Of a stretch of DNA of 64,000 nucleotides, positions 19,539-23,279 are shown piece after piece. Source of the stretch: Pleionea litopenaei (GTDB taxonomy: Bacteria; Pseudomonadota; Gammaproteobacteria; Enterobacterales; Kangiellaceae); contig NZ_CP133548.1 in NCBI RefSeq assembly GCF_031198435.1, positions 2,700,001-2,764,000 on the forward strand, given 5' to 3'. The number at the start of each line of letters is the position of its first letter. The first letter of the stretch is position 1. Both the position numbers and the translations under genes were made by a program. The notes under the pieces were generated by a model. That model did no database searches. It was not told the DNA's origin and saw nothing but the letters and a program-made list of their open reading frames with translations.

Positions 19539-20222
19539 ATGATTCAATTTAATGAAGTATCCAAGCGTTACCCCAATGGTCACGAAGCTCTCAGAAACGT
19601 AACCTTTACTCTGGGAAACGGCGAAATGTCCTTTCTCACAGGGCATTCAGGAGCCGGAAAAAGTACTTTGTTAAAACTCATTTGTGTTATGGAAAAGCCG
19701 ACTTCCGGTCAGGTGATTATTGATAATCGCAACGTCGGTAGAATTAGCCGACGAAAGATCCCTTTCGTAAGACGCAATATCGGTATGATTTTTCAAGACC
19801 ACCGGCTGCTGTTTGATCGAACAATTTTTGACAATGTCGCACTCCCCTTGGTCATCGCTGGATACCCGCATAAAGAAATAGGGCGACGAGTAAGAGCGGC
19901 ACTGGATAAAGTCGGACTTTTGTCGAAAGAAAAGTTATACCCCATTATGCTGTCTGGTGGTGAGCAACAACGCGTTGGTATCGCCCGCGCCGTAGTCAAC
20001 AAGCCGCCACTGCTGCTTGCCGATGAACCAACAGGTAATCTCGACCCAGAGTTATCCGCAGAAATCATGTCATTGTTTGAGCAATTCAATCAGGTCGGGG
20101 TAAGTGTTTTGATAGCCTCTCACGATCTTGGCCTGATCGCTCGGTTACCACACCGGGTGATGACGCTTAAAGAAGGTCAGCTGATTCAAGATGGGCTTCA
20201 GTCGACAACGGAGGTGCGCTAA
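19539..20222 (+). CDS. ftsE: Cell division ATP-binding protein FtsE
   Basis: 227 residues. ABC ATPase with Walker A GHSGAGKS (about 35-42), signature LSGGEQQR (about 138-145) and Walker [13 protein letters not shown]. With FtsX it forms a divisome-associated complex that activates periplasmic peptidoglycan amidases via EnvC-type adaptors and does not act as a transporter. Its TAA overlaps the ftsX ATG by one base (TAATG), indicating tight translational coupling. Confidence 0.97.
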
Positions 20223-21205
20223 TGACGCCTTCTAAAGATACACTGACAAAAGGTGCACAACTTTCGACCGGAAGTACCATCGGCTCTCGGCTGGCAATGG
20301 GCTTCAGGCAACATGGGCTCGAGTGTCGCAAAGGCTTGTCGGAACTGTTTAGAACACCCTTATCAAGCTTAATGACCATCGCGGTTCTTGCTATTGCACT
20401 CGCATTACCTGCAGGTTTCCATGTATTTCTAAAAAATGCTCAAGCGGTGTCGAGTGGTTGGGATAATGCCACTCAAATTTCGTTGTTTTTAAAACCTCAG
20501 CTCACTTCACAACAGACGACGCGTCTGACCAGTGACCTAGAAGCTTCCTCTAAAATTTCAGCCGTCGCTTTCATCTCAAAAGAACAAGGACTGCAAGAGT
20601 TTCAGTCGCTATCTGGCTTTGGCGATGCGTTAACGATGCTTGAAGACAATCCTTTGCCTGATACCCTGGTTGTCACACCGACAGCGGCGTTTAGCAGTCC
20701 AGAAGCTTCGGCTGAGTTGGTTGCCGAACTTCAAGCGATACCAGAAGTCGAACTGGCCCAGCTGGATCTTCAATGGGTAAGAAAGTTGTACAGTATGATG
20801 GATATCGCAGAAAGGGCCGTCAGTGCGCTCGGTGTATTGCTTGGCCTGGCAGTGCTACTCATTGTCGGCAACACCATTCGATTGGCGATTCAAAATAAGC
20901 GCGAAGAAATTCAAATCATCAAGTTAGTCGGGGCAACCGATGCGTTTATTCGTAGACCCTTTCTCTACGCAGGTCTCTGGTACGGTATTTTAGCCGGTTT
21001 AATCAGCTGGATACTGGTTAACTCCAGTGTGTTTTGGTTGAAAGAACCGGTACGAAATTTAGCTGGATTGTATGAAAGTCAGTTTCGCTTGAGCGGCTTA
21101 GGCTTTGTTGAAGCATTGCAGTTAATCGCCTTTGCAACTGGTCTCGGGCTACTGGGCAGCTGGTTATCGGTAGGTCGTCATATTCGAGAGATAGAACCAA
21201 CCTAA
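20222..21205 (+). CDS. ftsX: Cell division protein FtsX
   Basis: 327 residues. One membrane helix after a basic N-terminus (about 48-68) precedes a periplasmic extracellular loop domain (about 70-190), followed by three more helices (about 195-220, 248-270 and 290-312). NKREEIQIIKLVGATDAFIRRPFLYAG is the conserved cytoplasmic/helix segment of FtsX permeases. It is the membrane partner of FtsE and carries cell-division signals to peptidoglycan hydrolases. It ends 236 bases before the rpoH ATG; that spacer holds heat-shock regulatory sites. Confidence 0.95.
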   Translation: MTPSKDTLTKGAQLSTGSTIGSRLAMGFRQHGLECRKGLSELFRTPLSSLMTIAVLAIALALPAGFHVFLKNAQAVSSGWDNATQISLFLKPQLTSQQTTRLTSDLEASSKISAVAFISKEQGLQEFQSLSGFGDALTMLEDNPLPDTLVVTPTAAFSSPEASAELVAELQAIPEVELAQLDLQWVRKLYSMMDIAERAVSALGVLLGLAVLLIVGNTIRLAIQNKREEIQIIKLVGATDAFIRRPFLYAGLWYGILAGLISWILVNSSVFWLKEPVRNLAGLYESQFRLSGLGFVEALQLIAFATGLGLLGSWLSVGRHIREIEPT

Positions 21206-21268
21206 GCAATCTCCCTCGCTAATTGTCCGCTTTAATGAGATGGAATCTGTAAAAAGGTGTGTCAAAGC

Positions 21269-21298
21269 CTTGAAAACAGGCCGTTGAACGCCCACTAT
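21269..21298 (+). promoter_or_regulatory. Sigma-32-like promoter upstream of rpoH
   Basis: CTTGAAA (21269-21275) is a perfect heat-shock -35 box. After 15 bases comes CCCACTAT (21291-21298), resembling the CCCCATnT -10 box. Initiation would fall near 21305, placing both CIRCE elements in the transcribed leader. The -10 match is imperfect, so this is a candidate only. Confidence 0.5.
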
Positions 21299-21331
21299 TG
21301 GAGCACTCATTGATGGAAACTTTTTTTAAAG

Positions 21332-21358
21332 TTAGCACTCTAAGATTCAGACTGCTAA
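21332..21358. promoter_or_regulatory. CIRCE element 1 (predicted HrcA operator) upstream of rpoH
   Basis: TTAGCACTC, nine bases, then GACTGCTAA. The CIRCE consensus is TTAGCACTC-N9-GAGTGCTAA, so 17 of 18 arm bases match and the spacer length is exact. It lies 83 bases before the rpoH ATG. Confidence 0.85.
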
Positions 21359-21361
21359 AAA

Positions 21362-21388
21362 TTAGCATTCCCTACTCAGTAGTGCTAA
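21362..21388. promoter_or_regulatory. CIRCE element 2 (predicted HrcA operator) upstream of rpoH
   Basis: TTAGCATTC, nine bases, then TAGTGCTAA. 16 of 18 arm bases match the CIRCE consensus with the exact N9 spacer. Its centre is 30 bases from the centre of element 1, close to three helical turns, so two HrcA dimers could bind the same DNA face. Confidence 0.82.
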
Positions 21389-21441
21389 TATTTGCGTCAA
21401 ACCCTTATGTATAAAGACTTATAGTGCGGTTTAGGAGAACT

Positions 21442-22302
21442 ATGAACACACAGCTGTCAAATCAACATTTAGCACTTTCAGTGCCCCAAGGTAGCATTGA
21501 GGCATATATACATGCTGTTAATGCTATTCCGGTATTGAGTGTCGAAGATGAGAGAGAGCTGGCACGTCGTTTTCGTGATAGCGAAGACCTCGAGGCGGCA
21601 CGACAACTAATTCTCTCGCATTTACGTTTTGTTGTGCACATAGCTCGAAGCTATAACGGCTATGGTTTGCAACAGTCAGATCTCATTCAAGAAGGCAACG
21701 TCGGTCTGATGAAGGCGGTTAAACGCTTTGACCCAGATGTCGGTGTACGCTTAATTTCTTTTGCCGTCCATTGGATCAAAGCTGAGATTCATGAATTCGT
21801 ACTTCGTAACTGGCGTATCGTAAAGGTAGCCACCACTAAAGCGCAGCGTAAGTTATTCTTTAATCTACGTGGCTCTAAAAAGCGACTAGGCTGGTTCAAT
21901 AACGATGAAATTAAGGCCGTTGCTGATGACCTTGGTGTTAGTGAGGCCGAAGTTCGACGTATGGAAGGTCGCTTGAATGCTCGTGATATGGCTTTCGACG
22001 CACCTGTCGGTGATGACGACGATAGCGCACAATTCGCGCCGTCTCAGTTTCTTGAAGACAGTTCAGCCGATCCAGCAGCGAGCTACGAGCAAGACAATTG
22101 GCAATCTCACCATGAGCAAAAGCTAGTACTAGCCATGCAAGAGTTAGACGAGCGCAGCCAGAACATCTTAAAGCGCCGGTGGTTAGATGAAGAAAAAGCG
22201 ACGTTACAAGAGTTGGCTGACCAATACCAAGTGTCAGCAGAGCGAGTACGACAACTCGAAAAAAATGCCATTAAAAAGCTGAAAACCTCTATCGTTGCAT
22301 AA
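21442..22302 (+). CDS. rpoH: Heat-shock sigma factor RpoH (sigma-32)
   Basis: 286 residues. Region 2 contains [16 protein letters not shown] and the core-binding/-10 recognition segment [37 protein letters not shown]. The RpoH box QRKLFFNLR follows, and region 4 has a C-terminal helix-turn-helix ([28 protein letters not shown]). It directs RNA polymerase to heat-shock promoters. The ATG at 21442 is chosen because AGGAG lies just before it; a GTG at 21424 would place the ribosome site inside the gene. Two CIRCE elements and a sigma-32-like promoter precede it. A strong terminator follows. Confidence 0.97.
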
Positions 22303-22331
22303 GCTAGGCTTACCAAGCTTACTTAACATTT

Positions 22332-22357
22332 AAAAAAGCGCCTACGGGCGCTTTTTT
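22332..22357 (+). terminator. Intrinsic terminator of rpoH
   Basis: GCGCC/GGCGC stem with a TACG tetraloop, flanked by six A and six T, so it could work in both directions. It lies 30 bases past the rpoH stop codon. Confidence 0.92.
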
Positions 22358-22466
22358 AATATCCCTCGATTATCTCACGATTATTACAGACCTAAGATAA
22401 AATCAACTACACTTTAAAGACAGTCTACAATAACGATAAGAACTCACCTACAAAGGAGAGCTTGCC

Positions 22467-23279
22467 ATGTTACGTACTGCCATCACTTACTTGTCGATTG
22501 CAACTTTCGGCTTAGTTGGTTGCAACAATGATTCAAAAAACGCCGAAAAGAGCCAAAAATCCCAAACGCCAGTTGTCGAAACAACTTGCTCAGTGACGAT
22601 GGGCTGGGACCCTTGGGAACCCTACATGTATTTAGCACCAGGAAACAAAGTATCAGGTTTAGATATCGAATTAATTCAAGCACTTGCAGCTGAATCGAAT
22701 TGCGAGCTTAACTTTGTTCAAGATCAGTGGATGCGCTTGCTCGAAAAACTCGAGCAGGGAGAAGTTGATCTAGTCGCCGGAGCATCGGTTACGGAAAAGC
22801 GCAAAAGCTACGCTCTTTTTTCTGAGCCTTACCGAGCCGAGAATTTCGTTCTTTACGTGCGATCGGGTGAAAAAGATAGCTTTCCTAAGACTTTCAAAGA
22901 CATAGTCGAATCGGGTAAAAAAATTGGCGTCACAACCGATTATATATACGGCGACCAAGTGTCCGATTTTCAAGATGATCCGAACTATACAAAACAGTTT
23001 GTGTATTCTTCAGTCGGTGAAGCCAATTACTATAACCTGATGCAACATAACGTTGATGTGATCATTGAGGATCCCTTTGTTGGCGCGTACAACATTAAGC
23101 GCAAAGGTATCGAAGACCAGATCGACAAGCTAGACATACAAATTCACAGTGGTGATGTGCATTTAATGTTTAGTATGAAATCGGTGGATCATACTATCTT
23201 GACCCGCTTTAATGAGGCACTAAAGACCCTTAAGGCCAACGGGAAGTACAAACAAATTTTGCAGAAGTACATGCTCTAA
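22467..23279 (+). CDS. Orphan solute-binding lipoprotein (SBP_bac_3 type)
   Basis: 270 residues. The lipoprotein signal has lipobox LVGC (Cys19). The mature part is a type-II periplasmic binding fold of the polar amino-acid family: GWDPWEPYMYLAPGNKVSGLDIELIQALA near the N-terminus, then EKLEQGEVDLVAGASVTEKRKSYALFSEPY, and a C-terminal lobe ending LKANGKYKQIL. No permease or ATPase gene is nearby and no enzyme domain is fused. It may serve an unlinked transporter or act as a sensor. A strong AAGGAGAG ribosome site precedes the ATG. The ligand is unknown. Confidence 0.88.
   Translation: MLRTAITYLSIATFGLVGCNNDSKNAEKSQKSQTPVVETTCSVTMGWDPWEPYMYLAPGNKVSGLDIELIQALAAESNCELNFVQDQWMRLLEKLEQGEVDLVAGASVTEKRKSYALFSEPYRAENFVLYVRSGEKDSFPKTFKDIVESGKKIGVTTDYIYGDQVSDFQDDPNYTKQFVYSSVGEANYYNLMQHNVDVIIEDPFVGAYNIKRKGIEDQIDKLDIQIHSGDVHLMFSMKSVDHTILTRFNEALKTLKANGKYKQILQKYML

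Follow-up and report, generated by a model that had tools for sequence, protein, structure and literature searches.

The leader of rpoH in the DNA analysed here (the window, 64,000 nucleotides, positions 2700001-2764000 of contig C1 in a genome of 4.42 Mb) contains two CIRCE elements, which coincide with the parts of two candidate promoters. We consider it likely, on the sequence evidence set out below, that HrcA gates this promoter cluster, repressing both sigma-E and housekeeping transcription of rpoH, probably in dependence on GroEL. Direct control of rpoH by HrcA, which an earlier note on this DNA had proposed, is a likely prediction because the genome contains hrcA and a further CIRCE at groES, the family conserves the rpoH sites, and the occurrence of CIRCE at rpoH is associated with that of hrcA. 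As a kind, a CIRCE at rpoH is nothing unusual among gammaproteobacteria that carry hrcA; the special trait of this locus is the doubled operator.

Two CIRCE elements in the rpoH leader

The genes of the locus are ordered ftsY-ftsE-ftsX-rpoH. Family models identified ftsX, the 5' neighbour (20222-21205, + strand), and rpoH, which encodes sigma-32 (21442-22302, + strand, with its ATG at 21442) and whose product scored 413 bits against TIGR02392 (rpoH_proteo, cut-off 323). The two genes upstream of ftsX we take from their sequence to be ftsY and ftsE. The coordinates 21269-21441 given in the earlier note are correct. The leader contains the ribosome binding site of rpoH, AGGAG (21433-21437, + strand), which is invariant in an alignment of seven leader rows from six genomes. 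Further upstream, the pentamer TGTAA at 21248-21252 is also invariant across the aligned leaders of the six genomes and lies, in the window, 68 nt 5' of the sigma-E motif described below. A search of 20000-23000 against Rfam returned no match over a gathering score. We assigned the genome to the gammaproteobacteria based on its relatives and on the RpoH tree, where the family shares one supported fork with genomes of the order, Pseudoalteromonas and Rheinheimera.

Both CIRCEs are inverted repeats, listed without strand. CIRCE1 (21332-21358) reads TTAGCACTC-N9-GACTGCTAA and matches 17 of the 18 arm bases (one mismatch), while CIRCE2 (21362-21388) reads TTAGCATTC-N9-TAGTGCTAA and matches 16 of 18 (two mismatches), each measured against the operator consensus TTAGCACTC-N9-GAGTGCTAA. 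Recomputation reproduced the positions and arm matches first noted for them, together with the exact N9 spacing and the pitch of 30 bp between the two elements. When up to three mismatches were allowed, the window contained two CIRCEs compared with a mean of 0.01 after shuffling, and none of 100 window shuffles gave two sites. The same tolerance applied to the whole genome (4.42 Mb) yielded three CIRCEs, two at rpoH and one at groES, and a reversed control pattern yielded none. The pair at rpoH is real and conserved, and it is probably functional.

hrcA and the predicted HrcA targets of the genome

The repressor gene presupposed by HrcA control is present, as a frame of 346 amino acids scoring 326.6 bits against TIGR00331, and its product matched the solved HrcA structure 1stz with an E-value of 5e-21. 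It adjoins grpE, and dnaK and then dnaJ follow 3' of grpE. The groES CIRCE is perfect and ends 74 bp 5' of the groES ATG. No CIRCE with up to three mismatches was found at hrcA, grpE or dnaK in the whole-genome scan, so that, of the two usual HrcA targets named in the earlier note, groES has its site and dnaK does not. Since CIRCEs occur only at groES and rpoH, the predicted targets of HrcA in this genome are groESL and rpoH, and HrcA would reach dnaK via sigma-32 alone. A CIRCE-like string 5' of hrcA was rejected, its spacing being wrong as judged by eye.

Two further observations concern sigma-32 at these loci. Across the end of hrcA (L004:2205-2232) lies CTTGAAT...CCCCCATAT; this strong sigma-32-like site would serve grpE-dnaK-dnaJ and has no CIRCE. 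In the groES leader (L001:1501-1550), the spacer and right arm of the CIRCE contain GGGGTTGAG, with GCCCCCATAT downstream, an arrangement resembling a sigma-32 promoter that runs through the operator. The consensus of 14 groES CIRCEs from the family has the same sigma-32 promoter look, GGGGTTGAG running into the right arm and GCCCCCATAT following downstream; these 14 control sites are those among the family loci retrieved, groES having been checked in part of the family genomes.

Conservation of the CIRCE pair within the family

All 40 genomes of the family were searched, and rpoH was matched in 37 and hrcA in 37, the two sets of 37 being different. The genomes without an rpoH match (G017, G400 and G401) lie outside the 37 leaders considered here. 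Conservation in relatives, which the earlier note had named as a check on the sites, is extensive: 31 of the 37 leaders have two CIRCEs (at most five mismatches each), and six have one. The pitch of the 31 pairs is 31 bp in 26 cases, 30 bp in three, and 32 and 33 bp in one case each. Within the window's own genus conservation is partial, as all four hrcA-bearing genomes have CIRCE1 and only G000 and, with three mismatches, G004 have CIRCE2; the latter was lost in G001 and G003, both of which carry hrcA.

The six single-site leaders come from two genomes without hrcA (G002 and G010) and four with it (G001, G003, G005 and G399). In G002 and G010, one rpoH CIRCE is destroyed and the other has two mismatches, the sigma-E motif is kept, and no groES CIRCE with up to three mismatches is found among the sites listed. 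As these two genomes belong to different genera and each has a half-decayed rpoH pair, they are possible natural hrcA knock-outs. G009 and G398 have hrcA and an rpoH CIRCE, and no groES CIRCE at that tolerance among the sites listed; the only listed sites of G398 are its two rpoH CIRCEs. Loss of the groES CIRCE is therefore not confined to hrcA-less genomes, which weakens the argument from co-loss, and in G009 and G398 HrcA may act mainly on rpoH, or the groES site may be weaker. G401, without hrcA and without an rpoH match, has a perfect CIRCE at groES (L182) and tells little, the genome being 95% complete. A perfect CIRCE was also seen upstream of a second, broken rpoH-like gene (G014:C30:5496-6480; 53% identity, several stops).

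Occurrence across the class and association with hrcA

We then compared 141 leaders, chosen regardless of CIRCE and made up of 130 from the class and 11 from an order sample. An rpoH CIRCE with up to two mismatches was found in 91 of the 115 hrcA-bearing genomes, leaving 24 without, and in 1 of the 26 hrcA-less genomes (Fisher p 3.7e-13, uncorrected for kinship). The class sample by itself gave 91 of 115 with hrcA and 1 of 15 without. Its 130 leaders are the best 130 by RpoH score, and hence nearer the query, from 366 matched genomes out of 377 in the class; hrcA was found in 278 of the 377. The hrcA status of the sampled genomes was assigned by eye from profile-match tables. Among hrcA-less genomes, G124 has an rpoH CIRCE with one mismatch, and G105, G232 and G021 have one with three mismatches, reflecting either recent loss of hrcA or gaps in the assemblies. 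G146 has both hrcA and a perfect rpoH CIRCE. Removing G146 and G021 from the 141 leaves a set of 139 leaders, and the 91 leaders used below for offset and word counts were drawn from this set at up to two mismatches, with G124 included and G146 excluded.

A second CIRCE with up to four mismatches occurs in 5 of the 139 leaders, four of them in family f65 (pitch 30, 30, 29 and 32 bp, second site with three mismatches) and one in f153 (34 bp, two mismatches). A strict tandem pattern with a spacer of 3-4, run over the class, matched 1 of 369, the window's genome. The weaker tandems of f65 and f153 escaped this pattern, so that more than one family has tandem CIRCEs.

In addition, a collection of genome contigs was scanned with a CIRCE-ATG-RpoH box pattern, which presupposes both the CIRCE and the RpoH box, and at least 119 stretches were found. 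The matches listed include Methylococcaceae, Lysobacterales, Nitrosomonas, Rhodocyclaceae, Burkholderiales, Alcanivorax, Halieaceae, Pseudoalteromonas, Woeseiaceae and some Reyranella-like alphaproteobacteria. We found 118 of the stretches again, each with an RpoH frame of at least 195 bits, and none had a second CIRCE (up to five mismatches) between 200 nt upstream and the vicinity of the start codon, six of them having less than 200 nt upstream. The earlier note had presented an HrcA site at rpoH as out of the ordinary; instead, it is the majority state in the sampled hrcA-bearing genomes of the class (91 of 115), and it had been predicted in Geobacter sulfurreducens, according to the part of PMC545781 available to us.

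Candidate promoter elements at the two CIRCEs

The earlier note had recognised the CIRCE sites and overlooked two elements lying on them, a conserved sigma-E-type promoter and an extended -10-like word. The promoter, assigned by the well-known sigma-E consensus, reads GAAACTT-N16-TCTAA in the window. Its -35 element, GAAACTT in place of GGAACTT, occupies 21316-21322 (+ strand), where AACTT begins 14 nt 5' of CIRCE1, and its -10 element, TCTAA, occupies 21339-21343 (+ strand), where CACTCTA is invariant in the seven aligned rows from six genomes. With the -35 starting at 21316 and the -10 at 21339, the final two bases of the left arm of CIRCE1 double as the opening TC of the -10.

This arrangement recurs in the relatives. 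GAAACTT, GAACTT or GGAACTT, followed after N15-17 by TC, was found in 35 of the 37 family leaders, against a shuffle mean of 0.73, the remaining two having no such motif. In 26 of the 35 its AACTT precedes the first CIRCE by 14-15 nt; in the other nine the distance is 28-47 nt. In the 91 class leaders, AAC is located 14 nt (60 leaders) or 15 nt (13 leaders) 5' of the CIRCE, every other offset from -60 to -1 accounting for five leaders at most. The family groES CIRCEs, which served as a control, had AAC at -13 to -15 in none of 14 cases. A looser sigma-E pattern was present in 72 of 90 class leaders with a CIRCE (shuffles 3.87), and it was kept in 15 of the 25 hrcA-less leaders of the 139-leader set (shuffles 0.91). 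In the hrcA-less G105 and G232, the sigma-E-like motif is accompanied by CACTCTTA, likely a relic of a CIRCE arm. We conclude from these comparisons that CIRCE has been superimposed on a putative sigma-E promoter and is able to vanish from it. The gene for sigma-E itself, rpoE, was found in all 40 family genomes, in 39 of them above the cut-off, and GAAC[TC]...TC sites, mostly GAACTT or GAACTA with GTC, lie 5' of it in 20 of 20 leaders from 20 of the 40 genomes, a plain count with no shuffle control.

The extended -10-like word, TGC-TAATAT (TGCTAATAT), is located at 21383-21391 (+ strand), its TGCTAA being the end of the right arm of CIRCE2. In the 31 family pairs, TGCTAA-N-AT is found with CIRCE2 in 22 and with CIRCE1 in none. 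Where there is a single CIRCE, the word follows it in 90 of 118 leaders of the broad set (among the matches listed) and in 52 of the 91 of the class sample. Since the word lies at CIRCE2 and the sigma-E parts at CIRCE1, promoter parts that often belong to one operator elsewhere are here split between two. A scan of the leader with the sigma-70 consensus revealed no full promoter, the proximal candidate being without a good -35.

The overlap raises the alternative that CIRCE2 is a promoter part alone, a relic match whose right arm is preserved by the extended -10 (TGCTAATAT), with CIRCE1 as the sole regulator. In line with this, the hrcA-bearing G001 and G003 retain TG-N-TAAAAT where CIRCE2 has decayed, and G002, without hrcA, retains TGCTAATAT. 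However, in 29 of the 31 family pairs CIRCE2 has at most two mismatches, and it is kept at a near-constant pitch from CIRCE1, and we regard the relic reading as unlikely.

Proposed control of rpoH

Our preferred reading remains that both CIRCEs act as HrcA operators. According to this model, rpoH would be driven by the sigma-E-type promoter (21316-21322, 21339-21343) and by a proximal extended -10 promoter (21383-21391). HrcA, active through free GroEL, would bind the two CIRCEs on the same helical face, one per -10, and the bound repressor would exclude RNA polymerase from the rpoH promoters; because both CIRCEs lie over likely -10 regions, about three turns apart and on one face, polymerase would be blocked at both. 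Heat or damage would divert GroEL and release HrcA, allowing sigma-E and the housekeeping sigma factor to transcribe rpoH. Sigma-32 would then raise grpE-dnaK-dnaJ and also the chaperonin, groESL having likewise been freed of HrcA, and once GroEL is restored HrcA would close rpoH and groESL again. In the common form of the class, the left arm of one CIRCE would hold the sigma-E -10 and the right arm the extended -10, while in the family form the operator would be present twice, with the two promoter parts shared out between the copies. HrcA binding, promoter use and GroEL titration at rpoH are what we infer from this layout, and the near-constant pitch taken alone would point to cooperative binding. 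The GroEL dependence of HrcA is known from work on Bacillus; the HrcA of Campylobacter reportedly senses heat itself, which would be equally compatible with the model.

The earlier note had combined HrcA repression with autoactivation by sigma-32 from a box upstream of the CIRCEs. The box, CTTGAAA-N15-CCCACTAT at 21269-21298 (+ strand), is present and weakly conserved. The fuller pattern CTTGAAA-N11-16-CCCNNTAT is rare by chance (shuffle mean 0.02 per window), and in G004 and G002 a TTGAAA or CTTGAAA is followed, at a shorter spacing, by CCCC. On the other hand, the looser TTGAAA-N11-16-CCCNNT is expected about once per window (shuffle mean 1.12), the alignment of the genus shows no conservation of the -10 half, and the strict CTTGAAA / CCCCAT pattern occurs in just 1 of the 37 family leaders, which does not suit an autoregulated promoter. 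Better sigma-32-like sites, as read by eye, lie at grpE and groES. Sigma-32 autoactivation therefore appears quite improbable to us. Least probable is that CIRCE2, a 5' hairpin if sigma-E transcripts start near 21350, acts as RNA on the stability or translation of rpoH mRNA: the 27 nt of CIRCE2 do fold (-5.5 kcal/mol, z -2.74) and the CIRCE hairpin affects mRNA stability in Bacillus, but folding of the 121-nt leader is no stronger than that of its shuffles (z -0.54), and a near-constant pitch together with a link to hrcA is what would be expected of a DNA operator.

Discussion

If HrcA controls rpoH as proposed, the sigma-32 regulon would answer to a repressor sensing free GroEL, and HrcA, sigma-E and housekeeping inputs would be joined within less than 80 bp. 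A wider reading, which we find quite possible while stopping short of calling it probable, is that rpoH in beta- and gammaproteobacteria was ancestrally controlled by the sigma-E promoter, CIRCE and extended -10 interlocked as a single element. The E. coli design would then be what remained after loss of hrcA and of the operator, and the doubling at about three helical turns in the family, which f65 and f153 share with a weaker second site, would provide cooperative and hence steeper repression. If this were true, a chaperonin-sensing repressor would gate the synthesis of sigma-32 by the envelope-stress and housekeeping polymerases, which suggests that the textbook control of E. coli rpoH is derived. 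The prediction is testable in culturable genera, with named species carrying the site in Pseudoalteromonas, Alcanivorax, Methylocaldum and others.

In E. coli, translation and protein stability dominate the control of rpoH, whose promoters include the sigma-E promoter P3. The leader described here resembles P3 in having an AACTT-type -35 and a TC-type -10 before rpoH. When 14 control genomes were searched with the hrcA model, seven matched, E. coli not being among them. The HrcA/CIRCE system of Bacillus subtilis, reportedly described by Mogk et al. 1997, acts on groESL and dnaK; it shares with the present genome the operator consensus, HrcA itself and the groES CIRCE. Unlike in Bacillus subtilis, the target here is the gene of a heat-shock sigma factor, and hrcA and dnaK are without a CIRCE.

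A 2004 survey of beta- and gammaproteobacterial regulons likely covers some of these leaders, and rpoH may be among the CIRCE sites given there. In the available portions of the HrcA/CIRCE literature surveyed (PMC545781, PMC3989490, PMC10696704, PMC8762339, PMC5904260, PMC9959188 and PMC1978210), an rpoH CIRCE is reported only in PMC545781, and no tandem CIRCE, sigma-E overlap or class-wide link to hrcA was found in those portions of the HrcA, CIRCE and rpoH literature. That report predicted a CIRCE upstream of rpoH in Geobacter sulfurreducens, where groESL is also under CIRCE (Rodionov et al. 2004, PMC545781); the part available contains no tandem or promoter overlap. As far as that part goes, Geobacter sulfurreducens and the present genome are alike in having CIRCEs at both rpoH and groESL, computational predictions in either case (PMC545781). 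They differ in that the rpoH site of Geobacter sulfurreducens is single, of full consensus and located at -51, whereas here there are two imperfect sites, and in that its hrcA-grpE-dnaK-dnaJ cluster has a CIRCE, which is absent here (PMC545781). Within the extent of these sources, the CIRCE at rpoH is already predicted, in Geobacter, and its tandem form, with the promoter parts split between two operators, is new.
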